Shown here: positions 5,048 to 36,446 of the stretch, one piece after another
Layout: each line of letters opens with the position of its first letter
Numbering within the stretch: the first letter of the stretch is position 1
Assembly: GCA_018969905.1 (NCBI GenBank)
Contig: JAGWXK010000016.1
Coordinates: 1 to 36,578 of the forward strand
DNA length: 36,578 nt
Direction of reading: 5' to 3'
Origin: Bdellovibrionales bacterium
GTDB taxonomy: Bacteria > Bdellovibrionota > UBA1018 > CAIMNF01
Notes under the pieces: generated by a model
Told to the model about the DNA's origin: nothing
Database searches by the model: none
What the model saw: the letters and a program-made list of their open reading frames with translations, nothing else
Made by a program: the position numbers and the translations under genes

Positions 5048-6002
5048 TCTGCTTAACGTAGCGTATTGCAACGGTTTGGGGAACCCAGATCTGTACGGGT
5101 TTGCGACGTGCGTGCCTCAGTTTTTCGAGAAGGGCGGGATTGAAGCGAAGAAGTTCCTTTGTAGGCATGCCCGTCATCCGTGCGAGAGTTTCCATTTTCA
5201 TCCCGGCCGGGATCCGGATGCCGGAAACCTTTGGCCATTGATAGAGCGGTTGAATTTCGTTGAATCCGAACTTGTCCAGATGGAAGGCGATGGTGGTTGC
5301 GGCGAGAAATTTTGGCAAGTATTCCATGGTTTCTCTTGGAAGGGCTCCCCGGTCTGCCAACGTCCAGAAATCCGTGCTTCGTCCTTCACGAATCGCCCGT
5401 CGGATCCGCCCCTCTCCGGCATTATAGGCCGCGATGGCAAGGTACCAGGAGTTGAATCTTGAGTGCAGAAAATCAAGATATCGAATGGCCGCATAGGTGG
5501 AGGCGATTGGATGTCTCCGCTCATCAAGTTTTTCGCTCACTCTCAGGCCAAAGCGTTTGGCAGTGGGTTCCATGAACTGCCAGATTCCCACAGCGCTCGT
5601 GTGAGAGGTTGCATGAGTGACATACGAGCTTTCGATAAACGCCAGGTAGAAAAGTTCCCGGGGAAGTCGTGCCTCAGCGAGCGCGGACTGAACCAGCGGA
5701 CGATAGATTTCTGCGCGGTTCAGGGTGCGCGCAAAGCTTTCTCGTTCCCGGACGGAAAAATAGCGAATCCACCACCAGATCTCCCGTTTGATTTCTCCTT
5801 CGATTCGAACGCGGGATCTTGATTTCCTCTTTGGGGCCTCACTCATGATTCGAGTTGCCAGATCTTCATCCAGATCTCCCACCTCATGATCAAGAATGTC
5901 CTCGATTTCGGTATTGGGTGGTGGCGCGGACGAGCAGCCTGCATGGATCAATGCTAAGAAAAGCACCGGAAGAAGAGCGTAGATGGCTTTGCGTTGAGTC
6001 AT
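5001..6002 (-). CDS. MltD-like membrane-bound lytic murein transglycosylase (lipoprotein)
   Basis: This 333-residue lipoprotein carries a lipobox LIHAGC with Cys23 after a hydrophobic signal, so it should sit in the outer membrane. An SLT/GH23 domain spans about residues 105-245. LPRELFYLAFIESSY carries the catalytic Glu124, followed by TSAVGIWQFMEPTAKRFGL and YLAIAAYNAGEGRI, all classic MltD motifs. The C-terminal part (about residues 262-310, IPAGMKMETLARMTGMPTKE then LLRFNPAL) looks like one LysM-type peptidoglycan-binding unit; E. coli MltD has two. It cleaves the MurNAc-GlcNAc glycosidic bond with 1,6-anhydro formation. The ATG at 6002 is chosen because it begins the signal sequence. The next gene downstream overlaps its 3' end. 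Confidence 0.87.
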   Translation of the reverse strand: MTQRKAIYALLPVLFLALIHAGCSSAPPPNTEIEDILDHEVGDLDEDLATRIMSEAPKRKSRSRVRIEGEIKREIWWWIRYFSVRERESFARTLNRAEIYRPLVQSALAEARLPRELFYLAFIESSYVTHATSHTSAVGIWQFMEPTAKRFGLRVSEKLDERRHPIASTYAAIRYLDFLHSRFNSWYLAIAAYNAGEGRIRRAIREGRSTDFWTLADRGALPRETMEYLPKFLAATTIAFHLDKFGFNEIQPLYQWPKVSGIRIPAGMKMETLARMTGMPTKELLRFNPALLEKLRHARRKPVQIWVPQTVAIRYVKQNGELALESISKTRPI

Positions 6003-6237
6003 TTCGGGGCCTAGGTGTATAGCGATCAGAGGTGAACTCAAATAAAAAGGTTGAATTTATTGACATTTGTGAACTTAAATGGTCGGACTAAGCGTTCTTC
6101 TATCGATATAAATGATTTGAAGGCGAATCTTAGGGATTTTCACTCGGGATCTTTTTTAGCGCAACGAGTCTAATTGATGTCGTGCATCCTAAATGTTTCC
6201 TCCTGGCCCAAGTTCTCTTCGTGGTAGCTTCGACCCC
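6003..6237. promoter_or_regulatory. Divergent intergenic region between the transglycosylase and hemH genes
   Basis: This 235-base AT-rich gap lies between two divergent genes and must hold both promoters. On the plus strand a TATAAA at 6107-6112 is a good -10 candidate for hemH, with a weak -35 (CGGACT, 6084-6089) 17 bases upstream. A perfect TTGACA at 6060-6065 lacks a well-spaced -10. On the minus strand a TATACA lies about 20 bases before the transglycosylase ATG. I see no open frame or RNA structure here. Confidence 0.3.
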
Positions 6238-7266
6238 ATGCAAAAAGAAAAAACCGGAGTTCTCTTGCTGAATCTCGGGACCCCTGAGAGCCCGAGCAAG
6301 AAAGATGTGAGGGCGTATTTGAAAGAGTTCCTCAATGATCCCTTCGTGATCGACATCCCCGCGATTCCCCGCAAATTGCTGGTGAATGGGATCATCCTGA
6401 ACACCCGTCCCAAAAAATCGGCTGAAGCCTATGAGAAAATCTGGACCGAGCGAGGTTCCCCTCTGATGATTCATACCCGTGAGCTCACTGACAAGGTCAG
6501 ATCGCGCTTGAATCGGGACGGAGTCGGCCCCAGCGTGAAGATGGCCATGCGTTACGGAAGGCCATCGCTCCCTGAAGTTCTTCAGGAATTCAAAAAGGAG
6601 GGCGTGGAGTCTTTGGTGTTTTTGCCTCTCTATCCGCAGTATTCCTACGCCGCAAGCGAGAGTTCGATCGTGGAATTTGATCGGGTCATGAAAAAAGAGC
6701 TTCCCCGGGCGCGGGTTCGGGTCATTGAGGACTTTTTCTCGGCTCCCGGTTTCATTTCGGCATTGGCTGCCACACTTAGACCTGTTCTTGAGGTCGAAAA
6801 ACCCGACGCTCTTTTGCTCAGTTACCACGGAGTTCCGGAGAGGCAACTCTTGAAGATCAAAAAGCGTCCAAATCCGTGTTGCTCGCCGGGATGTTGTGAA
6901 CGCTGGAATGAGGGAAACGAAAAATGTTATCGGGCCCAGTCCTTTGAAACATCAAGGCGTCTCAGTGATGCGCTCTCCTGGTCCCGGGAAAAAACCATTA
7001 CCGCATTTCAATCCCGACTGGGGCGAACCAAGTGGATCGAACCCTATACGGACATTCTTCTGGAGGAGCTGCCCAAAAAAGGCGTGAAGAAGCTGGTTGT
7101 GGCCTCTCCTTCATTCACGGCGGATTGCCTGGAAACCCTCGAGGAAATCCAACTCCGCTACCGGGAATTGTTTCTGGATGCCGGAGGAGAGAGTTTTGTG
7201 TATGTGCCGTGTTTGAACAGTCGCGATGATTTTGCGGATGCGATTGCAGAGTGGGTTAAGGTGTAA
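6238..7266 (+). CDS. hemH: Ferrochelatase with internal cysteine cluster
   Basis: This 342-residue enzyme inserts Fe(II) into protoporphyrin IX (or coproporphyrin III) as the last metal step of haem synthesis. It begins GVLLLNLGTPESP, typical of HemH. LLSYHGVPER holds the catalytic His197, and SPSFTADCLETLEEI carries the acidic residues (Glu299, Glu302, Glu303) of the active site. Residues 213-230 contain five cysteines (C214, C215, C219, C220, C230). These match the class of ferrochelatases, exemplified by Myxococcus xanthus, that bind a [2Fe-2S] cluster through an internal segment rather than the C-terminus. I chose ATG 6238; an ATG at 6193 would add 15 residues unlike the family. Neither has a clear Shine-Dalgarno. 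It overlaps the next, convergent gene by 11 bases. Confidence 0.93.
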   Translation: MQKEKTGVLLLNLGTPESPSKKDVRAYLKEFLNDPFVIDIPAIPRKLLVNGIILNTRPKKSAEAYEKIWTERGSPLMIHTRELTDKVRSRLNRDGVGPSVKMAMRYGRPSLPEVLQEFKKEGVESLVFLPLYPQYSYAASESSIVEFDRVMKKELPRARVRVIEDFFSAPGFISALAATLRPVLEVEKPDALLLSYHGVPERQLLKIKKRPNPCCSPGCCERWNEGNEKCYRAQSFETSRRLSDALSWSREKTITAFQSRLGRTKWIEPYTDILLEELPKKGVKKLVVASPSFTADCLETLEEIQLRYRELFLDAGGESFVYVPCLNSRDDFADAIAEWVKV

Positions 7267-7699
7267 ATACCGGAATGCACTGCGCTTCCCAGTTTTGATC
7301 GATTCGGGATGCGTATCCGAAATACCAGCGGATCTTTTCCTCGGTGCCGAGGAGCTTGTATTCATCTGCAAGAAGTTCCGGAGTGACCCCGTCCACCGAA
7401 TAGCACCAGCCAAAGGCTCGAAGCTCCCGTGCGCTGACATGCTCAACGGAGAAACCAAGCGGGAGGCCGCGGAGAGGGGTGATGAAGTCAACTCCCACTT
7501 CACCAAAACCAAAGGCGTCAATGAGCCCCGAATCTTTGGCGCGGGAGAGATTTCGTTTCGTGACCTGCGCAATGCTCTCTCCTTTTTCAACAGAGACTTC
7601 CACCGAAAAGAGGGGAGATTCTCCGTAGACTTCGAAACGCGCAGCATCGGCTTTGTTTGAGAAAGAGGCCATCAGGAGTATCCACACAATTCGATTCAT
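7256..7699 (-). CDS. Small exported DUF4430-like protein
   Basis: This 147-residue protein has a signal peptide of about 21 residues ending NKADA before RFEVYGES. The mature part has the layout of DUF4430/cobalamin-carrier C-terminal beta-grasp domains. An early strand is followed by a segment like EKGESIAQVTKRN, and later come FGWCYSVDGVTPE and KIRWYFGYAS, recalling the 'W-y-VNG' and 'I-W-y-y' signature of that family. Its role is unknown; proteins of this fold bind small molecules or act as periplasmic adaptors. The start at 7699 is set by the signal peptide. It is tail to tail with hemH (11-base overlap) and divergent from the metalloprotease. I am only moderately sure of the family. Confidence 0.55.
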   Translation of the reverse strand: MNRIVWILLMASFSNKADAARFEVYGESPLFSVEVSVEKGESIAQVTKRNLSRAKDSGLIDAFGFGEVGVDFITPLRGLPLGFSVEHVSARELRAFGWCYSVDGVTPELLADEYKLLGTEEKIRWYFGYASRIDQNWEAQCIPVFTP

Positions 7700-7792
7700 G
7701 CCGTGAAGACTACCACCTGTTTTTTGGCGTGTCATTCCCGACACCCATGAAAAAAACTCCAAGAAAATATCCCATGTTCCGATGGGTGGATT

Positions 7793-10342
7793 GTGGCTGG
7801 AATTCGCTGGAAGTCATTTAAACTGTATGTGTTGATTTTTCTTCTGGGAGGCTGGCCTGCGGCGGAAGAGTCCTTTCCCCAAACCTCACAGGTTTCCCGA
7901 AAATCAGGCGATGCCCGGCTGCAGGCTCTATTGAGTGAAGCAAGGGGGGAGTCCACTTGCGGTTTTGATCCTCTGACGTCCCGACATCCTGAGTTTGAAG
8001 CGGAACGGCTCAGAAATGAACAGAAGCTCGCGGAGGCAATGGATCGGAATTCGAGAGTGGCCTCCCAGATGTTGCTTGCCGACACAGTAGTCACTCTTCC
8101 GGTGGTATTTCATGTGATCCACCTGGGTGAGCCGGTCGGAGTCGGATCAAACATCTCCAATGCGCAAATCGAAAGCGCAATCACATCCTTGAACCAACAC
8201 TTCCGAAAAATGACGGGAACCACCGGAGATGGAGCCGGTGTGGACACAAAAATTCAGTTCGTTTTGGCCAAGCGGGATCCCAACAATCAACCCACCAATG
8301 GAATCATCCGGGTCAATGGAAGCTCCATTCCAAACTACCCGACCCTGGGGATCGAGGCATCCTCCGGCACTGGAGCGGTTGAGGAGAGCGTGAAAGCGCT
8401 CTCCACCTGGCCCCGCGACAAATACATAAATGTTTGGGTTGTGACAGAAATCGAGGGAAATAACGGAGGAGGTGGAATCCAGGGTTATGCCTATTTCCCA
8501 TTCAACAGTGCGATTGACGGGATCGTGATTCTTCACAGTGCCACCGGAACGCTCGGAACGGTAAAATCCTATACCAATCACGGAAAGACCCTTTCTCACG
8601 AGATGGGGCACTATCTGAATCTCTACCATACATTCAATGCGACCAGCTCGTGCACATCCGAGACAAGTTGTTCGGCCGGGGGGGATCGGGTGTGTGACAC
8701 TCCTGCCACTCCGCTCGGAGGCTCTTGCAGCAGTCCCCAGTGTTCGGGAACCCAACAGGTTGAGAATTACATGGATTATACCTCCCAGTCCTGTCAGGAC
8801 ATGTTCACTCAGGGACAAAAAGACCGCATGCGTTCAGCCTTGGATGTTTTGCGGCCTACCATGTTGACCACGCTAGGAGGAGTACCGCTCACGACACTGG
8901 ATGCCTCGATTGCGCCGTCCGGGATGCCCGGATTTTTGTGTGATTCAGGTTTCCAACCAAAGGCTTCGCTCACGAACCTCGGCTCATCCACCATCACATC
9001 GGCCACAGTGCGATACCGGATTGACGGAGGAGCGTGGGAGTCGGTCTCTTTCTCAGGAAGCCTTGTGACCGGAGTCTCCACCATCATCACTCTTCCCGCC
9101 ATCCCAAGTTTGAGTGCAGGCAATCACACGATCGAATTCAATGTCAATGCGCCGAATGGCGGCACCGATCAGAGCACAGCGAACAATTCCGCGACGGCTT
9201 CCTTCTCTGTTCCCTCCAATCCGGAAACCATCAATGTCTCGTTTACGCTCGATTTTTACGGTTCCGAAAATACCTACATCGGTTCTCAAAACGGAGTGAA
9301 TGTCTTCACAGGGGGACCATTCCAAAACGGATCGCAAGGTACGGTGGTAAACAACTATCACTGTCTTGCGCCCGGTTGTTACACAGTGAGTGTTCGGGAT
9401 CAGTTCAACGACGGGCAAAGCTTTACAACCGGCAGCTACAGGATCCTGAGTGGAGCCGGAGTCACTCTGGCCACAAATTCCGGCAACTGGGGATCCGTTC
9501 AAAACCATGAAATTTGTGTCGGTGGGGCGACCGGGGGCGGAGGCCCCACGCCAACTCCCAGCCCGAGTCCGGTTGCTGATTCCGTTCCTCCCTCGGTGAC
9601 CCTGACCTCACCCTCAGCGCCGGTGAATTTGAATGCATCCTCGAGTCCCACGATCACTCTGAGTGCGACGGCATCCGACAATGTGGGTGTGAGCCGCGTC
9701 GAGTTTTATCGGGGTTCCGTGCTGATCTTCACGGATTCAACCGCACCGTATTCGCTCTCCCTGAATACCACCTCGATCGGGGAGGGAAACTATGCTCTTC
9801 GGGCAAAGGCATTCGATGCGGCCGGGAACTCGTCCTTTTCAGCCTCAGTGAATCTTTTGATCGACTTGACTCCTCCGTCTGGATCGATCGCCTCACCCGC
9901 GCACCTCTCTACGCTCAGCGGTGCCTCAATCATGCTTTCCGCCACTGCATCCGATGGAGTCGGAATCGGACGGGTTGAATTTTACCGTAATGGAGCACTT
10001 CTTGGAAGCACTACGACCTCACCGTATCAATACAACTGGGATCTTTCAGCCCTTCCCGATGGCAGCCATACGATTGGAATCAAGATATTCGATACCGTGG
10101 GGAATTCTTTTTCTCCTTCCAGTGTGAATCTCATCAAAGGAGGCAGTTCCTCGTTGACCGGAGCGGTGACTGCCTCATTCGGAGGGGCGAGCATTGGCTG
10201 CTATACCCGCTCCCAAATCACCTCGTTTATGAGCAATTTCGGGTGTACCGGCGCATGCAATTCCTCGTTCGATGTCAATGGAGACTCGAGAATCGATACC
10301 CTGGATCTCACCGAAGTGATGGGGAGCATGTGCCATGAATGA
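7793..10342 (+). CDS. Secreted M43-like zinc metalloprotease with Ig-like and dockerin-like domains
   Basis: This 849-residue exported protein starts at GTG 7793, the only in-frame start after a stop at 7748, and has a signal peptide over residues 1-24. A pappalysin/cytophagalysin (M43) domain covers about residues 95-355. HEMGHYLNLYH supplies zinc ligands His269, His273 and His279 with catalytic Glu270, and ENYMDYT has the Met-turn Met327. A CARDB-like domain follows (about 365-480), then a beta domain (to about 575), a Pro/Thr/Ser linker, and two similar Ig-like domains (about 595-785; each has LSATASD then RVEFYR). Near the C-terminus DVNGDSRIDTLDLTE is a dockerin-like calcium loop. It probably digests protein outside the cell. 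The stop overlaps the next start by eight bases. Confidence 0.82.
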   Translation: MAGIRWKSFKLYVLIFLLGGWPAAEESFPQTSQVSRKSGDARLQALLSEARGESTCGFDPLTSRHPEFEAERLRNEQKLAEAMDRNSRVASQMLLADTVVTLPVVFHVIHLGEPVGVGSNISNAQIESAITSLNQHFRKMTGTTGDGAGVDTKIQFVLAKRDPNNQPTNGIIRVNGSSIPNYPTLGIEASSGTGAVEESVKALSTWPRDKYINVWVVTEIEGNNGGGGIQGYAYFPFNSAIDGIVILHSATGTLGTVKSYTNHGKTLSHEMGHYLNLYHTFNATSSCTSETSCSAGGDRVCDTPATPLGGSCSSPQCSGTQQVENYMDYTSQSCQDMFTQGQKDRMRSALDVLRPTMLTTLGGVPLTTLDASIAPSGMPGFLCDSGFQPKASLTNLGSSTITSATVRYRIDGGAWESVSFSGSLVTGVSTIITLPAIPSLSAGNHTIEFNVNAPNGGTDQSTANNSATASFSVPSNPETINVSFTLDFYGSENTYIGSQNGVNVFTGGPFQNGSQGTVVNNYHCLAPGCYTVSVRDQFNDGQSFTTGSYRILSGAGVTLATNSGNWGSVQNHEICVGGATGGGGPTPTPSPSPVADSVPPSVTLTSPSAPVNLNASSSPTITLSATASDNVGVSRVEFYRGSVLIFTDSTAPYSLSLNTTSIGEGNYALRAKAFDAAGNSSFSASVNLLIDLTPPSGSIASPAHLSTLSGASIMLSATASDGVGIGRVEFYRNGALLGSTTTSPYQYNWDLSALPDGSHTIGIKIFDTVGNSFSPSSVNLIKGGSSSLTGAVTASFGGASIGCYTRSQITSFMSNFGCTGACNSSFDVNGDSRIDTLDLTEVMGSMCHE

Positions 10343-11828
10343 CTTCAGAAACCGACTTTCCGCATTCCTCTTTTTTGGTCTTGTCGGCTGTACAGAAATT
10401 CGGGGAGTTACGAAAAGCCCCCTTGATTCCGGAGTGGTCTCGGACACGGAGGCTGCAATTTCCTTGAAACTTCCCAATGGTTCCCGCTCTGTTACAACTT
10501 CAAACGGGTATGTCACCCTGGGCTGTGCCAATGACTTCCTATCCAATTTCTGTTTCTCGGTTCTGACCAATGGAGGTGTGAAGGTGCGGGAAGTGGGAGA
10601 TCTTCCAAAGCTCGCTCTTCCTGCGGGTGGATACGTGGTTGCAAGTTCAATCGCGTTTCTGCCACCCAACGATGTGGTGATTGTGGGCCACACCAGTGGA
10701 AATCTCGGCGAAGTGCAAGGGGGGGCGGGGGATGGCTTCGTGGCGCGCTATTCTCTTGGGGGCCCCAGGGTGTGGATCAAACAATTCGGCCAAACCACGC
10801 TCGGTTCGGCGAACACCAATCAGCGGGAGGATTTTTTTGATGTTGCGGTGGACTCAACCGGAAATATCTATGTTGCTGGAAGGACACGCAGCCATTTTCG
10901 TGCCACAGGGAGCGATTCCGCCAATGCTGGAAACTATGATGCGCTTCTATTGAAACTGGATCCGAATGGAAATCTTCTTTGGCGAAAAATGAACGGTACG
11001 GTGAGTGACGAAGAGTACCGCAGGGTTGTGGTCACGGCACAGGGCCAGATTCTTGCGGCCGGGCATTCCTGCGGAAACCTCTTTGAGGTGAATGCCGGGC
11101 TCACCACTGAAGCTGGATACAATGCTAATGCTGCATGTCCTACAGAAAACTTTCGTGATGTGATCTTGAGTGCCTTTTCATCAAGTGGCGCTTCGGTTTA
11201 CAACAGACAACTGGGCAAAGTTTCGCTCACCGCGGGAAAGGGAACCGGGTCGGATGTCGTCTTTGACCTGAATGTGAATTCAACGGGAGAGATCTTCATG
11301 ACCGGCACCACCACTTCCAGTTACGGGAAATCATTAAATGCTTCATTCAATGGGGAAACCCATGGCGGGATGGGGGACATTTATGTCTCGAAACTGAATT
11401 CAAACGGAATCCTTCAGTGGACGCGCATGTGGGGGGCCTCCCTTGCCGGATCCTCAAAGGTGGATGTCGGCAAAAGAATCCTCCCGATTCAGGAAACAGG
11501 TGAGATCCTCGTCTGCGCAGAAACTCTGGGCAATCTTCTTGAAGCGCAGGGTGGTGGAGTGATTTCTGGAGGAAACCCGGTTCAGGGCAAGGGAGATCTT
11601 GTTTTGATCAGACTTTCCGCCTCCGGTGCCACGTTGGGACAATCCCAGTGGGGCAATGCAAATATGGGTGCTGCGCGTGCATCCGAAAAGGAAACCTGTG
11701 GTTCATTGATCAAGGCAGGCACGCAAGTGGTGCTGTTTGGAACTTCGGACGGCCAGATTTTTTCAAATGGAAGCGGCTCTGCATTCCTGGTCCGGGGTCT
11801 TGCATCCGAATATGAGCTGATCCGCTAA
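10335..11828 (+). CDS. Lipoprotein with SBBP-type beta-propeller repeats
   Basis: This 497-residue protein has a clean lipobox GLVGC (Cys19) after a short hydrophobic signal, so it is a lipoprotein. The body is a string of repeats of the form 'D-x-F/Y-V-A-R/K-Y/L ... G ... W ... D ... G-N-I-Y-V-A-G'. Examples are GDGFVARYSLG, DSTGNIYVAGRTRSHF, YDALLLKLDPNGNLLWRK and IYVSKLNSNGILQWTRMWG. This is the SBBP beta-propeller repeat pattern seen in secreted bacterial proteins. The ligand is unknown. Its start lies inside the protease stop (ATGAATGA), so the two are translated together and may act together at the cell surface. It converges on kup with a 4-base overlap. Confidence 0.75.
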   Translation: MNDFRNRLSAFLFFGLVGCTEIRGVTKSPLDSGVVSDTEAAISLKLPNGSRSVTTSNGYVTLGCANDFLSNFCFSVLTNGGVKVREVGDLPKLALPAGGYVVASSIAFLPPNDVVIVGHTSGNLGEVQGGAGDGFVARYSLGGPRVWIKQFGQTTLGSANTNQREDFFDVAVDSTGNIYVAGRTRSHFRATGSDSANAGNYDALLLKLDPNGNLLWRKMNGTVSDEEYRRVVVTAQGQILAAGHSCGNLFEVNAGLTTEAGYNANAACPTENFRDVILSAFSSSGASVYNRQLGKVSLTAGKGTGSDVVFDLNVNSTGEIFMTGTTTSSYGKSLNASFNGETHGGMGDIYVSKLNSNGILQWTRMWGASLAGSSKVDVGKRILPIQETGEILVCAETLGNLLEAQGGGVISGGNPVQGKGDLVLIRLSASGATLGQSQWGNANMGAARASEKETCGSLIKAGTQVVLFGTSDGQIFSNGSGSAFLVRGLASEYELIR

Positions 11829-24025: not shown

Positions 24026-25531
24026 TTAGCGGCGGTTATTGTCCTGATTTGAACCGTCGATTGCAGGACTCAGGATTGATGGGGTTTTTTTGCGGTAGCG
24101 ATGCCCGATCCTGACAAAAAGACTGATGTCGCGGTTTGCCTCGATTTTATCGGGCGGCAAGAGGTCTAATTTTCTAAAGACCGCCTCACTTGTGTTTTCC
24201 TGGTTCAGCATGCCCGATTTTTCCTCGGGGTTGAGTTGCTTCAACATGCCATCCATCATCTTCGTGAAATCCAGTTCACCCACACCGGACTTTGCGGGTT
24301 CGGGGTTGCCCTTGGAGGCATAGACTGCTCCGGGGATACTTTCCGCTTCTTTCAAAGCGTCTTTTTCGATTTGGTCCATGCTTTTGCTGAGTGCCGCAGC
24401 GGTCGATGCGGGTAGTCCCATGGCTCCTGCAAGGTAGGTTCCGATTCCTGCACCGCTCACATCTCCGGGATATCCTTTGGCAAGATCGCCAAGGGTTTTT
24501 CCGTTCGTCATGGTTTCAAGAACCTTGTTGAGTTTCTCATTTCCAATCAGCGCCGAAATTGCAGGGGCGGAACTTGATCCTTTGAAGATGCAGGTCAGGT
24601 AGGAATTTCCTTTTGATGAATCGCAATCATTCGCAGAGCTTGTGGTGACTCCGTCCGCAGCGGCAAGTGCTGCCGGGTTTTGTTGAGCACCCGAGGGCCT
24701 GCCAAATTCGTTTCCGATGGCGCCCCCTGAGGACTGAGCCAGGAGTGCCTCTTCTTTTGCCTTGCTTGTGTAGTTCTTCTGAAAGGTTCTTGCATGGATG
24801 GACTCCACAATCGCGAAACCCATTTCAAGTGCGAGAATTCCCGCTTGAATAAAACAGGAATTTTTTTGCGATTGGTCGACGGATTTTGTTTCTGTGCCGG
24901 TACTTGTAGTTTGAGTTTGGGGAGCTTGGGTCTGGGCCGGGGCATTCGAAGTATTTGCGTTTGCTTCAATGGTATCATTTGTGGCGCCTAAACTACCGAT
25001 GACATTCATGACTTTATCTTTCATGAGCGTGATGTACTCTCGTGCCACCATTGTTTTTGCAGCTCCGAGGACATACCCGGATCCTTGGGCTATTTTGTTT
25101 TGTTCATACTGGGTGTCAGTGCCGATTTTTTTTGTGAGGCGGCGGTCCATGAGCATCTTGGCGCCGGTCCCAGCGAGAGAAATGGCGGTACAGGCGATGC
25201 CTGATGGTTCCCAGATCGCGAGGGCGGCACAGGAGGCGGACATCGCTCCAAACATGATGGCTTTTGCGTTTGCCTGTCGTTTTGCAATTCGGGAATGTTC
25301 AGCGGTTTTGCACTCCTGATATCCTCGAACCGGTACGCTCGGATCAGGATTCAGGCCCTGCTTTTGATTGATCGGATCGCAAACCGCGGACTGTTCCTCG
25401 TTGATCGAATCAGCCCAAGCCTTTCTCTGAAACGTGAAAGGTGAGGAAATGCCAAGCTGGAACACGAGCACCCCGAACAAAAATCGTTGAAAACCGCTCG
25501 TTTGTTTCTTAAACGCTTGTCCTGGTCTCAT
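24026..25531 (-). CDS. Large exported or membrane protein of unknown function, second in a pair
   Basis: I do not recognise a family. The 501-residue protein starts at ATG 25531 behind GAGGGGGCAGAAG and has a long N-terminal signal (residues 1-41, ending KAWA). Two hydrophobic segments with paired cysteines follow at about residues 90-130 (AIMFGAMSASCAALAIWEPS, SGIACTAISLAGTGA). Another lies near residue 230 (CFIQAGILALEMGFAIVESI). These suggest a membrane hairpin. Between them is a Gln/Thr/Ala-rich linker (PAQTQAPQTQTTSTGTET). The C-terminal end has SLFVRIGHRYRKK, which matches the F-x-x-I-x-x-R-Y-x-K-K pattern at the end of the upstream partner. It lies 28 bases downstream of that partner, so they form one operon. 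Confidence 0.7.
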   Translation of the reverse strand: MRPGQAFKKQTSGFQRFLFGVLVFQLGISSPFTFQRKAWADSINEEQSAVCDPINQKQGLNPDPSVPVRGYQECKTAEHSRIAKRQANAKAIMFGAMSASCAALAIWEPSGIACTAISLAGTGAKMLMDRRLTKKIGTDTQYEQNKIAQGSGYVLGAAKTMVAREYITLMKDKVMNVIGSLGATNDTIEANANTSNAPAQTQAPQTQTTSTGTETKSVDQSQKNSCFIQAGILALEMGFAIVESIHARTFQKNYTSKAKEEALLAQSSGGAIGNEFGRPSGAQQNPAALAAADGVTTSSANDCDSSKGNSYLTCIFKGSSSAPAISALIGNEKLNKVLETMTNGKTLGDLAKGYPGDVSGAGIGTYLAGAMGLPASTAAALSKSMDQIEKDALKEAESIPGAVYASKGNPEPAKSGVGELDFTKMMDGMLKQLNPEEKSGMLNQENTSEAVFRKLDLLPPDKIEANRDISLFVRIGHRYRKKTPSILSPAIDGSNQDNNRR

Positions 25532-25559
25532 CTTCTGCCCCCTCAAATAAAGCACACAC

Positions 25560-27866
25560 TTAGAGATTGTACAAAACCGCACCCTCTTGGTTCTTCTTCA
25601 GATACCGCTTATGAATCACTTCGAAAATGTTCTGGTTCCGACCAATGACGGCAGCCTGATCGGTTGCAGGCGCCCGATCCCCGAGGGCTACTTGTTCGGC
25701 ACCCGCATCCTTCTTCTCTCCCTCTTCCTCGCCCGGAAGAAGTTTCTTCAGAAGATCCGCAAAGGCTTGATCCACTCCGACCCCGGCTGAATCGCCGCCT
25801 GATTTTGAGGCAAAGCCTCTGGGCGCGGATGCATCATTTGAGGCGTAGCTTACGACCGGATCCTTGGTTTTGGCAGGAGCCTCGGGTGATCCATCATCCT
25901 GCGCGGCTGCAGTTCCGCCCACTCCACCGGCAGCACCGCCTGCCGCACCTTGAGGGGCCTGGGCCTGGGCATCGCCGAATCCTCCCGGAGCGGGGGCCTC
26001 GGGTCCGGCATTCGGATCGTTCAGGTTGAATTGGGGTTGATCATCCAAAGCAAGAGGGCTTTCATCGCTGTCAGAGTTTAGGACCTGGCCCGAGTCCAAA
26101 GCAGTCACAGTTGGGGCGGAGTCGGGGACTCCCGGGAGAGGGGCCTCGTTTGGCAGTTGAATGTTGTAGTTTGAGTTGAAGTTTTTCCCTGCGTATTCCA
26201 TTTTTTCGATGGCATTTCTCTCCGTACGGGCACCCCAAGCGGAGAGGAGCGAATCTTTCATGGCTACCGCCATTTTCAGTGCATTTTCCCCTTGAGCATT
26301 CTTTGTGCTAGTCGTGTTGATGCCAACATTATCCAGCCTCCTATTGTAGTCATCCGTCAATGCCGCCTTCTGTGCTGGATCATTGGTCCCAGAAATTCTC
26401 TTCTCCAAGTCTCTAAGGTCCTTTTCTGCGGCCTCTTTCAGTGTTGTTACCCTTTGATTGCTCTGGAGGTGTTTTACGCCCATCATGGCCTGTATTGTTG
26501 CAAGGCCATAGGCTCTGATTTCCTTGTTTTTTAGTGCCTTTTTGGCGTCGTCTCGAACACGATTCTCTGCCTCTTGCACTGCTTTATTGTCGGTAAAGAG
26601 CCCTTGTGCTGCAATGTTTGCTGTTTCTTGAGCTCCTTTGGCTTGAACCCGAGACGCGCTTACTTGCTCTGCGACCCCCGCAGCTCCTGTCATGACGTGG
26701 TTGATCCCTTGGGTGTAGGTGGAACTCAGGGTCCCAAACGCACCATCAAAACTTCCTTCGTGTTTTTCTTGAATGGCCTTAGCTCCGGCCAAATTTGCAA
26801 GATTCTTTTCGTGCTCTTTGAGTGTTTTCTTTTCTCCCTTTATCCTAGATCGATACGACTGTTCATTTAGATTTTGGTCATTAAGTCCAAGTTTTTTATT
26901 CGAAGCCTCGATTTCTTCCTGTGTTTTTTTGATTGCTTCCTGTGTTTTTTTGATTGCTTCCTGATTTTGGTTGATTGCTTCCTGATTTTGGTTGGCTCCA
27001 TTATGGTTCTCTTTATTAATCAAACCGTTTTTTTCGCTGTTCAGCTGCTTCAGTTGTGCAATGTTGTCATTCCGGTTTTCAAGTTCCTTATTGTATTCTT
27101 TTCGGCCCAATTTCTTTGCATTTTCGAGGTTGGTTTGGGCTGAATTTTTATGGTTTTCAGATGCAGTCTTTAGGTTGGCATAATCAGTCATTTCTTCATT
27201 CTTCGTTTTCGCCCATTCCGCGGAATAAATGCAATTCCCTTCAGAATCAGCAATTACGCCTTTATCTTTGCATTCGGCTTTCTTTTTGGCTAATTCAATG
27301 CTTGCTTTATGGATCTCATTTGGATCGGAGTTCTTTTGTTGATCATGTAATGCGCCAAGGTCTTGTTTCGTTATGTCTTCCTCATAACCAGTGGGGTCAA
27401 ATTTCTTGAGTCTTTCAACATCGCTCCAAATAAATGATGAGTAAGAATGACCCCCTTCATCCCAAGTATATCTTAGCTCGGGGCGTTTTAGGCCCTTTTG
27501 AATGCAAATCCATCGTGTGTCTTCGGTTATAACTTTATTATTTTGACTATCGTGATAGTAACATTGTGCACCAGTGATTGTCGCAGTACGCGCCTGTGGA
27601 CTAGGGTTTGGGCGGGGAAAAAGGGGCATGTTCAACTGGTAATCACTGTAGGACCACTGGTTATTTGAAGCTTTCTTCCATCTTCTGTTAGAATATTTAA
27701 ATCCGCCCCGCCCGAAGCAATTCTCTTTAGAATCATCCCCTAGCCAAACTCTTTTCCAAGTACCATTAGTAGCATTTTTTTCTTGACACTCCCCAGCCCA
27801 CGCCCGGAGAGGCAGAGTGCTCATCAACGCCATGATGAAAACAAAACTGAGGCTTGATCTATTCAT
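25560..27866 (-). CDS. Large exported coiled-coil protein of unknown function, first in a pair
   Basis: No family is recognised. The 768-residue protein starts at ATG 27866 (TTTGGGGGAATT upstream), giving a good signal peptide (residues 1-24, ending LRAWA). The N-terminal 210 residues contain several cysteines and aromatic residues (NCFGRGGFKYSNRRWKKASN), suggesting a small disulphide-bonded domain. About residues 225-375 are coiled coil, with four exact or near-exact heptads (NQNQEAI twice, KKTQEAI, KKTQEEI). The middle (390-560) is helical. The C-terminal 170 residues form an Ala/Gly/Pro-rich low-complexity stretch that ends in NQNIFEVIHKRYLKK. Its N-terminal half is AT-richer than the flanking genes. 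It leads an operon with the next gene; a scaffold or surface-fibre role is a guess. Confidence 0.72.
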   Translation of the reverse strand: MNRSSLSFVFIMALMSTLPLRAWAGECQEKNATNGTWKRVWLGDDSKENCFGRGGFKYSNRRWKKASNNQWSYSDYQLNMPLFPRPNPSPQARTATITGAQCYYHDSQNNKVITEDTRWICIQKGLKRPELRYTWDEGGHSYSSFIWSDVERLKKFDPTGYEEDITKQDLGALHDQQKNSDPNEIHKASIELAKKKAECKDKGVIADSEGNCIYSAEWAKTKNEEMTDYANLKTASENHKNSAQTNLENAKKLGRKEYNKELENRNDNIAQLKQLNSEKNGLINKENHNGANQNQEAINQNQEAIKKTQEAIKKTQEEIEASNKKLGLNDQNLNEQSYRSRIKGEKKTLKEHEKNLANLAGAKAIQEKHEGSFDGAFGTLSSTYTQGINHVMTGAAGVAEQVSASRVQAKGAQETANIAAQGLFTDNKAVQEAENRVRDDAKKALKNKEIRAYGLATIQAMMGVKHLQSNQRVTTLKEAAEKDLRDLEKRISGTNDPAQKAALTDDYNRRLDNVGINTTSTKNAQGENALKMAVAMKDSLLSAWGARTERNAIEKMEYAGKNFNSNYNIQLPNEAPLPGVPDSAPTVTALDSGQVLNSDSDESPLALDDQPQFNLNDPNAGPEAPAPGGFGDAQAQAPQGAAGGAAGGVGGTAAAQDDGSPEAPAKTKDPVVSYASNDASAPRGFASKSGGDSAGVGVDQAFADLLKKLLPGEEEGEKKDAGAEQVALGDRAPATDQAAVIGRNQNIFEVIHKRYLKKNQEGAVLYNL
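26910..26993 (-). repeat. Four tandem 21-bp units encoding coiled-coil heptads
   Basis: Units 26910-26930, 26931-26951, 26952-26972 and 26973-26993 share GATT(G/T)CTTCCTG on the plus strand and differ in the second half. The two right-hand units are identical to each other. The left pair differs by one base. Read on the minus strand they encode heptads NQNQEAI, NQNQEAI, KKTQEAI and KKTQEEI. Such a minisatellite can gain or lose whole heptads without a frameshift. Confidence 0.9.
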
Positions 27867-27889
27867 AATTCCCCCAAACATAAAAATCA

Positions 27890-27902
27890 GGCGTGACACG
27901 CC
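27890..27902. promoter_or_regulatory. Palindrome in the leader of the exported-protein operon
   Basis: GGCGTGACACGCC is a near-perfect palindrome with one central base. It lies at about +2 to +14 relative to the start site predicted from the promoter at 27911-27939. It could be an operator. On the minus strand it is followed by TGATTTTTATG and so also looks like a short terminator or attenuator hairpin ahead of the gene. Confidence 0.35.
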
Positions 27903-30699: not shown

Positions 30700-33588
30700 G
30701 TGAACGAAAAGCAGCGAGTCATCGTGGAAACCTTCGGGCAGGGCCTTGCGGTCGTGGCAGGAGCCGGGTGTGGAAAGACCACCACGCTTGTGGCCAAGTG
30801 TGCGGAACTGCTCAGGCAAAGTCCAAAGGCCCGGTTTTGTGCGGTCTCCTTTACCGAGAAATCGGTGAGGGACCTGAAGGAGTCGCTCAGCGAAAACCTG
30901 GGGGGCGTGGACCTGCAGGAACATTGGGTGAAGACGATCCATGGCTTATGCGCCTCGATCCTTCATGAGTTTCCGGTGGCGGCGGGTCTTCAGGGCGGAG
31001 AACGGATCCTGCTTGAGGATGAGGCAAACCGGCTTTGGTCAAAGAGCCTTGATGTGCTCTGGAGCTCAAATGACAACGAAGAGATCACGCAGGCGCTTGA
31101 TCGCCTTTTGTTGGTCTACTCCCGAGACTCCCTTGAATCCCTGTTTCGAAAACTCCGAAGCCTCATGTCCTTTGGTGTGGCTGAATTCATCACGAAATCC
31201 TTTGATCGCACCGAGGTCAGGGATCTTTGGCTTGTGTTTGAATCGGTATACCAACGCTATCAGCAGGCAAAGAATCGGGATGGCGGCCTTGATTTCAACG
31301 ATCTTGAACTTCGCGCCGATCGCGCGCTCCAGGATGAGCGGGTCCGAAGGCATTTTCACTCGCGGTTCGACCTTGTGATGGTGGATGAATTCCAGGACAC
31401 CAATCCCCTGCAAGGCAGGATCCTGGAGCGATTCGTAAAGGAGGGCCTAAAAAACCTCTGCATCGTTGGAGATCCAAAGCAGTCGATCTACCGGTTTCGC
31501 GATGCCGATGTTTCGGTCTTTCAGGACCTGACCGCGAGATTGCCCTCAAGACATGTGCTCGATGAGAACTACCGCTCCCGTCCTCCGATCATCGAATTCG
31601 TGAACGAGGTGTGCAGGCCCGCGTTTGCCGCCTCGAATCTTCCCTACGAGCCTCTGATCGCCAAACGGGAATCCGTTGACCCCGACGCAGTTTCGATTCT
31701 TGAGTGGGGCGAGGAAGCCGATCTTGCCGATTACCTTTTGTCCGAACGTGCCCGCGATGTGGATCTTTCTGAATTCGTGATTCTTGCGCGATCGGTGAGG
31801 AATCCCAAAACCCAGAAATTCCTGCAAGCGCTCCAGGCACGGGGCATTCCGATTCTGCTGGGAAGTGGCGGGCGTTTTTATGAGGATCCGCGTGTTCGCG
31901 AGGCCATCGCCCTGCTCCGGGGGTGGGTTTCGCCCGAGAACACGATCTCACAGGTGACGGCATTGCGATCGCCCTGGATCGGGGTTTCGGATTTGTGGCT
32001 TTTACAAAAAAAGGGCTCGTATTTCAGGAGTTTTTTTACCGAGTCTGATCATCCTGTGGCAAAGGCCCTCAAGCCCCTTTATCTTTCCGCCGGAAGAACC
32101 TCACTCATTCGACCGGGGCAGATCCTGGCCGAGCTTTTGAAACTGGAGGGGCTGGATGAGGAACTTTACACTCCGCTTGTGGCGCTTTGGCACAAGGTCG
32201 AGGAGTGGAGCCGGCAGGGGTTGCGTTTCGAGGCGGTGGTTCGGCAGCTTTCGGATGCGGTGGAGAACGAGAAAATCGAAAAAGAGGTGCCTGCACCCGC
32301 GGAAAAGGGCATGGTCCGTGTGATGACGGTGCATGGCTCAAAGGGGCTTCAGTTTCCGCGCGTGATTTTGGTTGATTTTGAAGGGCCCTCCCGTTCTTCC
32401 TCCCGAAGCGGGGATCTGATTTGGGATCGAAAGATGGGGGTTCATCTTTTGAATCGGGACGAAGACGGGGCCACGCTCAAAGAGGACGCCGCGAATGTGA
32501 GATGGAAGGAGCTTGAAAAAAAATCCGCAATCGCAGAAAGCAAGCGGGTGTTTTATGTTGCCTTGACCCGTGCACAGGAGCGCCTGATTCTTCTTTGGAA
32601 AAAAGACGTAAAGGAATCAAAGAAAACAAGCGAGCCCGGCTATGATCCCTACCTCGAAGACAACTGGCGGGCCTGGGTGAAGGCAGCAAGGATTCCGAAA
32701 TCTTTGGAATGGGGTCGCGGACGGCTCAACTTTGAGGGGACCAAAAATCCCGAGCCGCACAAAAATCCCGAGCCGCACAAAAATCCCGAGCCGCCTTCGA
32801 TCAGTTCGCGAGCGTCGGTTCAATCTCCCTTTGATTCAAAACCCTATCGTGCGCGCCATTCCCCCAGTGAGTGGTTGATTTTGAACCAGTGTGCCCGCCG
32901 CTACCGGAAGAGATTTTTCGAAGTGGAACCGGAATCAGCGCGCGAAGAGCCTGCGATTGAAATTGACCCTGATTCGGAGCCGGAAACGGAGCGGGGCACG
33001 AGCCGGGGACGGAGCTCCAGCATTCAAAAAGGCGAGCGAATCCACAAGCTCATCGAGGAGCGGCGGGATGCGGAATTGGCGGAAGAGTTTTCATCCAGAA
33101 CACTTGGATCAGAGGTCGTTTCAAAGTTGCGAGACTTTCTGCGGGAATCGGGTGGCAGCGTTCGGAGTTATACGGAGCTTGGCTTCGAGGTTCCGCTCTC
33201 GCCGCGAGAGGCTCTGGTGGGGATGATGGACCGCCTGGAAGTCGATTCAGAGGCAAAAAGCATTCGCCTGATCGACTACAAGTTCACGTCCAAACCGGTG
33301 TCCCCCGAGCAGCTTCTCTCGAGTTACGCGCTGCAGCTACAGCTTTATGCTTTCGCGGCTTCAAATTTGGTACGCTTCACTCCGAAAAAAATGGAAGGGT
33401 TTCTGGTTCATTTCACTGAATCCTCTTTTTCGATCATCCAATGCCCTGAATCCTGGTTTCAGCAAGCAGCGCTCCAGGAAGAGGTTTCAAACTTATTTGC
33501 TCAAGCAAAATCTTCGAATGATTCTCCAAGCCCGGGAGAGCATTGTCGATATTGCGAAGTGAGGGAGTCTTGCCCGGCCAAACTGTGA
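30700..33588 (+). CDS. UvrD/AddA-like helicase with C-terminal Fe-S PD-(D/E)XK nuclease
   Basis: This 962-residue protein couples an SF1A helicase to a nuclease in one chain. Helicase motifs: Walker A GAGCGKTT (21-28), VMVDEFQDTNPLQ with Asp229-Glu230, GDPKQSIYRFRDADVSVF, VMTVHGSKGLQFPRVILVD and RVFYVALTRAQERL. From about residue 720 an AddB/Cas4-type nuclease follows: GMMDRLEVD then LIDYKFTSK (Asp, Asp-x-Lys), and LQLYAFA for the Q-x-x-x-Y motif. Cys731 with C949, C952 and C958 are the four expected [4Fe-4S] ligands. AddAB and AdnAB enzymes with this layout resect double-strand breaks; no partner subunit is visible here. The start is GTG 30700 without a clear Shine-Dalgarno. The stop abuts an in-frame ATG of the topoisomerase VI B gene. 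Confidence 0.85.
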   Translation: MNEKQRVIVETFGQGLAVVAGAGCGKTTTLVAKCAELLRQSPKARFCAVSFTEKSVRDLKESLSENLGGVDLQEHWVKTIHGLCASILHEFPVAAGLQGGERILLEDEANRLWSKSLDVLWSSNDNEEITQALDRLLLVYSRDSLESLFRKLRSLMSFGVAEFITKSFDRTEVRDLWLVFESVYQRYQQAKNRDGGLDFNDLELRADRALQDERVRRHFHSRFDLVMVDEFQDTNPLQGRILERFVKEGLKNLCIVGDPKQSIYRFRDADVSVFQDLTARLPSRHVLDENYRSRPPIIEFVNEVCRPAFAASNLPYEPLIAKRESVDPDAVSILEWGEEADLADYLLSERARDVDLSEFVILARSVRNPKTQKFLQALQARGIPILLGSGGRFYEDPRVREAIALLRGWVSPENTISQVTALRSPWIGVSDLWLLQKKGSYFRSFFTESDHPVAKALKPLYLSAGRTSLIRPGQILAELLKLEGLDEELYTPLVALWHKVEEWSRQGLRFEAVVRQLSDAVENEKIEKEVPAPAEKGMVRVMTVHGSKGLQFPRVILVDFEGPSRSSSRSGDLIWDRKMGVHLLNRDEDGATLKEDAANVRWKELEKKSAIAESKRVFYVALTRAQERLILLWKKDVKESKKTSEPGYDPYLEDNWRAWVKAARIPKSLEWGRGRLNFEGTKNPEPHKNPEPHKNPEPPSISSRASVQSPFDSKPYRARHSPSEWLILNQCARRYRKRFFEVEPESAREEPAIEIDPDSEPETERGTSRGRSSSIQKGERIHKLIEERRDAELAEEFSSRTLGSEVVSKLRDFLRESGGSVRSYTELGFEVPLSPREALVGMMDRLEVDSEAKSIRLIDYKFTSKPVSPEQLLSSYALQLQLYAFAASNLVRFTPKKMEGFLVHFTESSFSIIQCPESWFQQAALQEEVSNLFAQAKSSNDSPSPGEHCRYCEVRESCPAKL
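32743..32796 (+). repeat. Three tandem 18-bp units in the helicase-nuclease linker
   Basis: AAAAATCCCGAGCCGCAC occurs twice exactly (32743-32760 and 32761-32778). A third copy (32779-32796) differs only in the last two bases. It encodes KNPEPH, KNPEPH, KNPEPP, a proline-rich flexible linker between the helicase and nuclease parts. Confidence 0.95.
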
Positions 33589-33633
33589 ATGGTTGACGGG
33601 GGGCCTCCTTTTTGGTTCACTGTGGCCTACACC

Positions 33634-35283
33634 ATGGCTGAACAAAAGAAGATCTCAAGCTCCTCAACCGCTGAATATTTCTCAAAAAATCTCCAACAGG
33701 TCGGATTTTCAAGCCCGACCAAGGCGGTTCTTACGACCCTGAAAGAGGCAGTCGACAATGCGCTTGATGCCTGCGAGGAGCATCACATTGCGCCATCCCT
33801 TCGGGTCGAAATCGACCGTTTGGGCGCCGGATCCATTAAAAATTCTGAACGAATCCGCGTAGTGGTCGAGGACAATGGTCCGGGAATCGATGCGGATGAT
33901 TTACCGAAAGTTTTCGGGGAATATCTGGCCTCCTCCAAATTTGGTCGCGGAAGATGTACCCGCGGACAGCAGGGGATCGGGATTTCTGCCGCGACGACTT
34001 GGGCCCAACTCACCTGCGCCCAAGGTGCAAAGGTCATTTCAAAGACCAAGAACATGCGGAAAGCCGTATCCGGCATGATCGAAGTCGACATCAAGAACAA
34101 CAAGGGTGTGATGAAGAATCGCGAAACCTTCGATTGGGATCGTCCTCACGGAACCCGTGTCGAGTTTGTTTTTGATGGCCGGATCCAGATCAACGGTGAG
34201 GCCGGGCTTTTGAACTATCTTCTCGGAACGACTCTTGTGAACCCTCATCTGCAGCTCGAGTACAAGCTTCCGGATCAGGAAGTCCAGAAAGTGGAGCGGG
34301 TATCGAATGATGTTCCGGCCATTCCGGAAGCAACCGAGCCTCATCCCCACACCATGAAGCTTGGAGAGTTCATCGCGCACTCCCATTTGTTCGGGCGCCA
34401 AAAGGTCTCTGCATGGCTCAAAAAAGGGTTTAGTCGAGTGGGCGACAGCGTGATCGAGGAGATCGCAAAGAAAAAAGAACTCGGCGTGCCCAAGGCAAAC
34501 TTCGACAAACTCGTCGATCAGCTTGCAGATGGCGATCTGAACAAGCTCTTTAGTGCCATTCAGAATACCGAACTGAAAGCGCCCTCCACGAACTCGGTGC
34601 TCAGCATCGGTGAAGAGGCGATGTCCAAAAGCATCCAGCGCCTTGGCAAGGTCGACTTCTTTTCGGTTGTGACCCGGAAACCGACGATTTGCGATTTCAA
34701 GCCAGTGCAGGTGGAAGTTGCGATTGCCCGGCTGGAGCAAAAGGGAGCGGATGGCGACAATCCCGCCCAGCTCCTTCGCTTTGCAAACCGGGTGCCGCTG
34801 CAGTTTGACAAATCGGCTTGCGCGATCGCGCAGGCTCTCTCTTCGGTGAACTGGCGGGCCTATGGGCTTGCGCAACCAAAGGACGCGTTTCCACTCGGGC
34901 CCTACATTTTTGCGGTCTCGGTCGTGAGCCCTTTCATCAAGTTCAAAAACGCATCCAAAGAAACCATCGATGCCTCCGATGAACTTGTGGAAGAGATTCG
35001 CCGCGCCCTGATCCAGGCCGGTCAAAAGCTCTCGCGCTACATTCGTGCCGAGCACAAGGCAAACGAGCTTGAGGAAAAAATCCGCTACATCGAGCAGTTC
35101 GGGCCTATCCTGGTCGAGGGACTTGCACGGATCACTCAAGCCAAGGAAGACCAGAAAAAGCGCGCCCGCGATGGACTCATGAAGATTCTGGGGCGCGACA
35201 CCAACGAAACCGAAAAAGAGCTGACCGACGCAAATAAGAAGCTCGAGATTCAGAAAGCAAAAGATTCCGAGGAGCAACCATGA
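33634..35283 (+). CDS. top6B: DNA topoisomerase VI subunit B (ATPase)
   Basis: This 549-residue GHKL ATPase forms an A2B2 type IIB topoisomerase with the next gene product, passing one DNA duplex through another. All Bergerat-fold motifs are intact: KEAVDNALDACEE (Glu38, Asn42), VVEDNGPGID (Asp80, Gly82, Gly84) and GRGRCTRGQQGIGISAA (G111, G114, G116). KLGEFIAHSHLFGRQKVSAW falls in the helix-two-turn-helix region. VNWRAYGLAQPKDAFPLGPY is the transducer-domain WKxY-type block found in archaeal Top6B, and SKETIDASDELVEEIRRAL lies beyond it. Length fits the archaeal enzyme (about 530). I prefer ATG 33634, as an ATG at 33589 adds 15 residues with no family match. Neither has a Shine-Dalgarno. Its stop overlaps top6A by ATGA. 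Confidence 0.93.
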   Translation: MAEQKKISSSSTAEYFSKNLQQVGFSSPTKAVLTTLKEAVDNALDACEEHHIAPSLRVEIDRLGAGSIKNSERIRVVVEDNGPGIDADDLPKVFGEYLASSKFGRGRCTRGQQGIGISAATTWAQLTCAQGAKVISKTKNMRKAVSGMIEVDIKNNKGVMKNRETFDWDRPHGTRVEFVFDGRIQINGEAGLLNYLLGTTLVNPHLQLEYKLPDQEVQKVERVSNDVPAIPEATEPHPHTMKLGEFIAHSHLFGRQKVSAWLKKGFSRVGDSVIEEIAKKKELGVPKANFDKLVDQLADGDLNKLFSAIQNTELKAPSTNSVLSIGEEAMSKSIQRLGKVDFFSVVTRKPTICDFKPVQVEVAIARLEQKGADGDNPAQLLRFANRVPLQFDKSACAIAQALSSVNWRAYGLAQPKDAFPLGPYIFAVSVVSPFIKFKNASKETIDASDELVEEIRRALIQAGQKLSRYIRAEHKANELEEKIRYIEQFGPILVEGLARITQAKEDQKKRARDGLMKILGRDTNETEKELTDANKKLEIQKAKDSEEQP

Positions 35284-36446
35284 GTGCATCAACCCGCAGA
35301 GGCGGAAAACTTCAGAGTGAAATCCCAGGGCTCAGCAAAGCGCTGTGCCTGAAACTTTTGAATGACCTTGAGAAAGGTAAGCGCCCCGTCCTGCATGCCA
35401 CCAAGTGCTCGCTTGACAATTCCATTTACAATCACAAGGTGGGGTATCTGACCCCGGGGGGCAAGAAAGTCGCAACCGAGTTGAATGTAAGTTCGGTGAA
35501 AAAGATGTCCCGTGCCGTGTTCATGCTCGAGATCCTGCTCCGAAACATCGAGAGCGGCGCGGTGAACACGAAGCGCGAGTTGTACTACATGAGCAAGGGT
35601 GAAACGAAAAACACCCCGATGCTAAAGCCCCTTGATTTCACCGAACAGGGTGAGAGCGACGAGACCATCGATTTCCTTTGCGAGATCCTCGAGTGCTATC
35701 GCGAGGAGTTCAATTGCTATGCGAACGACCGCGGAGGGCAGACCTATTCGCAACATCTGGTGGTGACCGAAACCCTGCCGGACGGTGATACAGCTGTGGT
35801 GGATCTCTCAAAACTTGGAACTTCGCCCTTTCAGCCAAAGAACCGGCCCCAGAACCTGAAGCTTTCCGCAAAAAAGAAGATCGATTTTTGCCTGATCGTC
35901 GAATCCGAAGGTACCGCGAATACCCTGGTGGCCAATGGAATCACGAAGCGCCACAATTGCATTGTAATGGGTGCCCAAGGGGTACCGTCCAACGCGGTTC
36001 GTGGATGGGCCAAGCTCATTCAGGATCAGCTCGATGTGCCGATGTATTTCTTCGGGGATTTGGATGCGTACACGCTTCAAAACATTTATCGGACACTGAA
36101 AGCAGGGTCTGCCGCCTCCCTGATCCGGAACCAGGATTACAGTGCGCCGGATGTGAAGTTTTTGGGCGTGTTGCCCGAGGACATCAAGCGCTATGACTTG
36201 TTTGATTATCCGGTGAAGGAAAACGATGTGCAGGAAGTGCGGGCGCTGAAAAAGGCGGACGATGCCCTCAAAAACGACCCTTTCTTTCAGGACAAGCGGA
36301 ACAAGGGGCTTGCCGATATTTTGCGCTGGCTTTACAAGAACAAGCGCCGTTGCGAGCAACAGGCCTTTTTCTCGGTGAATCCCAAGGATCCGACCACGCC
36401 GGAGAGGATCATTGTGGATAAGATCAAGCGCGGCGAGTTCGTCTGA
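35280..36446 (+). CDS. top6A: DNA topoisomerase VI subunit A (DNA cleavage, Spo11-related)
   Basis: This 388-residue subunit makes the double-strand break. The 5Y-CAP domain has NTKRELYYMSKG with catalytic Tyr103 (Tyr102-Tyr103), as in archaeal Top6A. The Toprim domain has Glu208 (CLIVESEGTANTL) and the metal-binding Asp260-x-Asp262 in FFGDLDAYTLQNIYRTLKAG. The length matches archaeal Top6A (about 370-390), and the spacing between Tyr and Toprim is normal. The ATG at 35280 lies inside the top6B stop (ATGA), which gives coupled, equimolar translation. No catalytic residue is missing, so an active enzyme is expected. Spo11 is excluded as the better name because subunit B is adjacent and the organism is bacterial. 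Confidence 0.94.
   Translation: MSASTRRGGKLQSEIPGLSKALCLKLLNDLEKGKRPVLHATKCSLDNSIYNHKVGYLTPGGKKVATELNVSSVKKMSRAVFMLEILLRNIESGAVNTKRELYYMSKGETKNTPMLKPLDFTEQGESDETIDFLCEILECYREEFNCYANDRGGQTYSQHLVVTETLPDGDTAVVDLSKLGTSPFQPKNRPQNLKLSAKKKIDFCLIVESEGTANTLVANGITKRHNCIVMGAQGVPSNAVRGWAKLIQDQLDVPMYFFGDLDAYTLQNIYRTLKAGSAASLIRNQDYSAPDVKFLGVLPEDIKRYDLFDYPVKENDVQEVRALKKADDALKNDPFFQDKRNKGLADILRWLYKNKRRCEQQAFFSVNPKDPTTPERIIVDKIKRGEFV

Follow-up and report, generated by a model that had tools for sequence, protein, structure and literature searches.

The window analyzed here, a stretch of 36,578 nucleotides from a Bdellovibrionales bacterium (contig JAGWXK010000016.1), encodes what is, by families and motifs, a complete and intact DNA topoisomerase VI (topo VI, type IIB), and the genome to which it belongs has gyrase and topo VI, without topoisomerase IV (topo IV). 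Topo VI is a housekeeping trait of the phylum, found in most members and vertically inherited. It is likely that this chromosomal, vertically maintained A2B2 enzyme serves as a decatenase in place of topo IV. The genes and domains concerned are as follows:

30700..33588, + strand: UvrD/AddA-like helicase with a C-terminal PD-(D/E)XK nuclease, directly upstream of top6B
33634..35283, + strand: top6B, DNA topoisomerase VI subunit B (549 aa; GHKL ATPase, H2TH region, transducer)
34582..35079, + strand: Top6B transducer domain (PF09239)
35280..36446, + strand: top6A, DNA topoisomerase VI subunit A (388 aa; catalytic Tyr103)
35499..35714, + strand: Top6A winged-helix/CAP domain with the catalytic tyrosine (PF04406)
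35886..36386, + strand: Top6A Toprim domain with Glu208, Asp260, and Asp262 (PF21180)

The start of top6B was set at the ATG at 33634 and not at the in-frame upstream ATG at 33589; homologues begin with MAEQKK. Its reading frame shares an ATGA overlap with that of top6A, as the initial annotation had described. A single Top6B chain combines a GHKL ATPase (PF02518) with the Topo-VIb transducer (Pfam Topo-VIb_trans, 152 bits) and scores above the cut-offs of two NCBIfam models (NF003218, 525 bits; TIGR01052, 389 bits). Top6A matches the Pfam families TP6A_N (50 bits) and TOP6A-Spo11 Toprim (129 bits), and its score against the NCBIfam equivalog NF003335, 401 bits, falls just under the cut-off of 424. 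Top6B retains Glu38, Asn42, Asp80, the GQQGIG motif at 111-116, and Lys442, the equivalent of the Sulfolobus shibatae transducer lysine, while Top6A retains Tyr103 (aligned with Tyr103 of M. jannaschii), Glu208, Asp260, and Asp262; these catalytic residues are invariant both within the phylum (alignment A1) and across bacteria and DPANN archaea (alignment A2). The best solved-structure matches are from M. mazei and S. shibatae for Top6B, and from M. jannaschii, S. shibatae, and M. mazei for Top6A. All ten PDB matches with E<0.001 to the AlphaFold model of Top6A (pLDDT 85.5) are Top6A or Spo11. Against 9o0g_A, the model gives a Foldseek E value of 1.8e-21 with a TM-score of only ~0.5 and a large rmsd, probably due to differing domain orientations. 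Profiles, residue alignments, and the Top6A model thus bear out the earlier description of a complete topo VI with every catalytic motif. Moreover, the dN/dS between same-genus top6 copies is ~0.03-0.04, with dS saturated, pointing to strong purifying selection.

The contig itself is ordinary bacterial chromosome, carrying holA, an amidase gene, a mutY-type gene, hemH, a Kup-type transporter gene, mutS, miaB, and dnaE. Two other regions of the window were also noted. At 24026-27899 on the - strand lie two large open reading frames (518 and 779 aa) with no Pfam matches, in a segment where the AT skew is strong and the GC is lower, dropping to 0.44 in places; at 7793-11828, a gene for an M43-type metallopeptidase with bacterial Ig domains precedes one for a beta-propeller protein that weakly resembles lipoproteins of the Leptospira LipL53 family.

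The source genome is a metagenome-assembled genome (MAG) of 2.73 Mb in 180 contigs and is 97% complete. It contains exactly one GyrA/ParC-type gene (PF00521) and one GyrB/ParE-type gene (PF00204), and no second gene of either type was found with these profiles at that completeness. The initial annotation had pictured topo VI as an addition to the customary gyrase and topo IV, and had proposed looking for both elsewhere in the genome; the search returned a single gyrase (one GyrA and one GyrB), with parC and parE absent. The gyrase genes belong to a dnaN-recF-gyrB-gyrA cluster split by a KASIII-like gene, where the names dnaN, recF, and KASIII-like were read from the sequences and not from a profile search. 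The sole A subunit is assigned to gyrase because it retains a GyrA-box, in the variant form QGRGGKG. A degenerate box in the window's order, and with it an absence of gyrase, was considered and rejected, as the box is present there as either QGRGGKG or QHRGGRG.

Across the phylum, a set of 369 genomes grouped according to GTDB was surveyed, the organism names in it indicating Bdellovibrionota. Top6B is present in 212 of them, in one copy each with few exceptions, and in 155 of the 235 high-quality genomes; it was found in every sampled genome of the window's genus and in most genomes of the same order. The implied rarity of topo VI in bacteria therefore does not hold here, and this frequency, together with the phylum-only clade described below, makes the enzyme a normal trait of the group, an outcome that the initial annotation had itself foreseen. 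PF00521 occurs once in 192 of the Top6B-bearing genomes, is missing from 13, and occurs more than once in seven. In five of these seven, one gene is split over contigs or frames, and in another (G368) the extra match is a fragment on a scrambled contig. In the last, G367, a contig of 8.6 kb carries an additional gyrase-type pair; a real topo IV was rejected in this case, as the pair scores as GyrA and as GyrB (subfamily level) and the short contig may be contamination. PF00204 counts agree, with two matches in only two Top6-bearing genomes, G367 and G321, the latter a fragmented assembly. Thus, by PF00521 and PF00204 copy numbers and inspection of the multi-copy PF00521 cases, no credible topo IV was found among the 212 genomes. 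Assembly gaps are not the cause of this pattern, because thirteen single-contig genomes of family f11 (apparently that of Bdellovibrio) each contain Top6B, GyrA, and GyrB in exactly one copy.

The 157 genomes without Top6 are largely accounted for by one family, f9 (129 genomes, presumably Bacteriovoracia), in which 107 have at least two PF00521 matches and the rest are mostly incomplete or fragmented. The complete f9 genomes examined have exactly two A subunits, one of which is a normal GyrA with its box. The second is short (477-482 aa), is without a C-terminal domain or box, and adjoins a gene for a ParE-like protein with a Lys-rich tail. It shares 25% identity with the window genome's GyrA, scores far below the NCBIfam cut-offs, and finds its best PDB match in fungal topo II; the gene is chromosomal. 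One example is the following:

L223 (genome G043), 5387-7534 and 7549-8991: second type IIA gene pair of f9; also seen in L088-L091, L221, and L222

A phage origin for this second enzyme was entertained and then dropped, because ordinary GyrA obtains an even higher score with the PHROG profile. Another family, f25, carries a longer box-less ParC-like protein of 776 aa. Families f23, f24, and f26 (G289-G296 and G301) consist of small genomes, up to 100% complete, whose only recognizable type II topoisomerase is gyrase; neither Top6A nor a second A-type subunit was recognized in them, and G301 has two PF00204 matches. Most of the other genomes lacking Top6 are fragmented assemblies from families that otherwise bear it.

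A second set comprised 45 Top6-bearing bacterial genomes, mostly from outside the phylum (L099, L100, and L110 have phylum-type Top6). GyrB-type genes are single in 36 of these, absent from two, and doubled in seven. Five of the seven are Pseudomonadota, in agreement with the published statement that this group retains gyrase, topo IV, and topo VI together (PMC11302465). Planctomycetota, Myxococcota, and Acidobacteriota, along with families f27 and f28 of the window's own phylum, also combine gyrase and topo VI and usually lack a second GyrB-type gene; their Top6 proteins group with the DPANN type and are 29-39% identical to those of the window.

What, then, does the enzyme do? The initial annotation was right to raise the question of its role, although the answer need not be an additional, special job; more simply, it would be the missing job of topo IV, chromosome decatenation. 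Because the cell has gyrase and no topo IV, unlinking of sister chromosomes is the simplest assignment for topo VI. Its activity, essentiality, and cellular role are what we infer here, the observations being its presence and intactness, the absence of topo IV, and the phylum pattern. By analogy with characterized topo VI, the A2B2 complex would bind DNA crossings. As in other members of the family, Top6B would dimerize on ATP and capture a second duplex, and Tyr103 of each Top6A would cut one duplex, giving a transient double-strand break with 2-nt overhangs. Passage of the second duplex with ATP would then unlink the sister chromosomes, with gyrase presumably keeping up negative supercoiling meanwhile. 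M. mazei topo VI complements an E. coli parE-ts mutant, a result given as unpublished data in PMC11302465.

Alternatively, gyrase could decatenate while topo VI performs a separate job, such as handling positive supercoils at forks, nucleoid compaction, or a part in a predatory or filamentous cell cycle. Decatenation by gyrase alone is possible in some bacteria, and the gyrase-only families f23, f24, and f26, from within the same phylum, count against replacement; the Pseudomonadota, with topo VI alongside a second type IIA enzyme in both our count and the literature (PMC11302465), point the same way. However, across the phylum the presence of topo VI excludes, one for one, that of a second type IIA enzyme, and the M. 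mazei enzyme decatenates by preference and relaxes DNA poorly (PMC8837201); we therefore regard a separate job as unlikely. The exclusivity with topo IV rests on few independent swaps, and the Pseudomonadota keep all three enzymes. A sign test was not significant, and co-variation statistics on the GyrA tree were abandoned because independent pairs were too few.

It is very improbable that the pair forms a Spo11-like or defense-type DNA-cleaving complex instead of a strand-passing topoisomerase. Top6A is homologous to Spo11 and to defense-system nucleases (PMC13040014), Spo11 structures appear among its weaker matches, and an AddA-like recombination gene lies upstream. Yet the locus has kept a complete top6B that overlaps top6A and whose product still has the ATPase motifs and the transducer lysine; the best matches are to topo VI, and the genes are single-copy and phylum-wide. 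The AddA-like helicase-nuclease gene is separated from top6B by 45 bases on the same strand, and this gene order is kept in the closest relatives only (L092 and L190). Because the linkage is limited to these, a functional unit of the two was rejected, and the AddA-like gene probably plays no part in topo VI function.

Top6A and Top6B trees agree in placing the window's proteins in a phylum-only clade with 100% support. Top6B identity to the window is at least 61% inside this clade and at most 39% outside; the clade's Top6A and Top6B are very divergent, with 29-39% identity to other Top6. Since the stem leading to this fully supported clade is very long, at several substitutions per site when modeled with C20, acquisition of topo VI is, on this sequence evidence, old. 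A recent transfer, or contamination of the MAG with archaeal DNA, suggested by the archaeal associations of topo VI and by the position of the locus at a contig end, is refuted by this tree and by the same-genus genomes, and is practically excluded, the codon usage of top6 (RSCU correlation 0.86 and 0.84) and its GC also matching the bacterial neighbors dnaE, mutS, and miaB. The initial annotation's reading of compositional likeness as a sign of old transfer thus stands. In plasmid and phage collections, Top6B was seen on haloarchaeal megaplasmids only, and no Top6A was found in the phage collections.

Some clade members are labeled Lysobacteraceae, Nitrospira, or Deltaproteobacteria at NCBI. 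The Lysobacteraceae label (L095) is a misnomer, as the contig matches in length one of G320, from the same order as the window. Separately, a public contig labeled Bacteriovorax stolpii (L115) matches in length a contig of G365, from the Top6-bearing family f29 of the same phylum; this label, too, looks wrong.

Families f27 and f28 (L004-L009; G302 and G360-G364) contain a topo VI of a second, markedly different type, which clusters with those of Planctomycetota and Myxococcota. Their Top6B is 35-37% identical to that of the window, and they have no second type IIA enzyme. A separate acquisition of this type is plausible from the sequences; two proven acquisitions would be an unsupported claim, as AU tests do not reject a single origin with the window type (p 0.50 for A, 0.23 for B). 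On the GyrA tree, used as a stand-in for the species tree, f9 nests among the topo VI families (97% SH-aLRT with f1-f7), which would imply a loss of topo VI in f9; a constraint uniting all type-1 families in a single clade was not rejected on this tree (p 0.23). On balance, we lean toward a decatenase that is exchangeable within one phylum: archaeal-type topo VI, possibly acquired twice, in most families; a divergent type IIA enzyme without a C-terminal domain in one large nested family; a canonical-looking ParC-type enzyme in another; and gyrase alone in the small-genome families.

Among characterized enzymes, M. mazei topo VI (PDB 2q2e and 9o0g) shares with the window's both subunits, the GHKL-H2TH-transducer and WHD-Toprim domain orders, and all catalytic residues, whereas the C-terminal Ig-like domain of M. 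mazei Top6B is missing from the window's. Also missing is the Lys/Ala-rich tail that follows the transducer in many Top6B proteins of the phylum. In alignment A1, L020, L018, and L031 have a long Lys/Ala/Thr-rich, histone-H1-like tail. S. shibatae topo VI (PDB 2zbk) likewise has a compact Top6B ending after the transducer, with the lysine at 427 in place of 442. Against the window's Top6B, that of S. shibatae scores lower than that of M. mazei. To our knowledge, S. shibatae is an archaeon without the bacterial gyrase/topo IV pair.

Closer to the window, Bdellovibrio bacteriovorus, of the same phylum, likewise has gyrase and topo VI without topo IV, and the f11 Top6 falls in the same clade as the window's. 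From gene position, Bd2865 and Bd0005 are most likely Top6B and GyrA, respectively. A 2023 review lists these as 'Top II' and 'Top IV', respectively (PMC11318664). Allen and Maxwell described the B. bacteriovorus topo VI (Bd2864/Bd2865), noted the lack of topo IV, and suggested a replacement role (Allen & Maxwell 2024, PMC11302465). Their one representative of the phylum had an 'anomalous' Top6B position, whereas the many members included here form one deep, well-supported clade; with its relatives included, the Bdellovibrio position looks like a real deep lineage in the sequence trees.

The occurrence of topo VI in bacteria, the Bdellovibrio case of topo VI with no topo IV, and the idea of replacement are thus already published (PMC11302465). 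In the literature searched, neither the exclusivity across the phylum nor the different second enzymes of f9 and f25 were found; the exclusivity of topo VI and topo IV throughout the phylum is what this analysis adds. Model bacteria cannot do without topo IV, which is also a major target of antibiotics. If the decatenase is indeed exchangeable, the phylum would be a natural experiment in replacing an essential topoisomerase. If the phylum uses topo VI for decatenation, Bdellovibrio, for which genetic tools exist, would allow direct tests of the enzyme in a bacterium, and this would help to answer why bacteria keep topo VI. It would also suggest that fluoroquinolones have a single target, gyrase, in these predatory and environmental bacteria.
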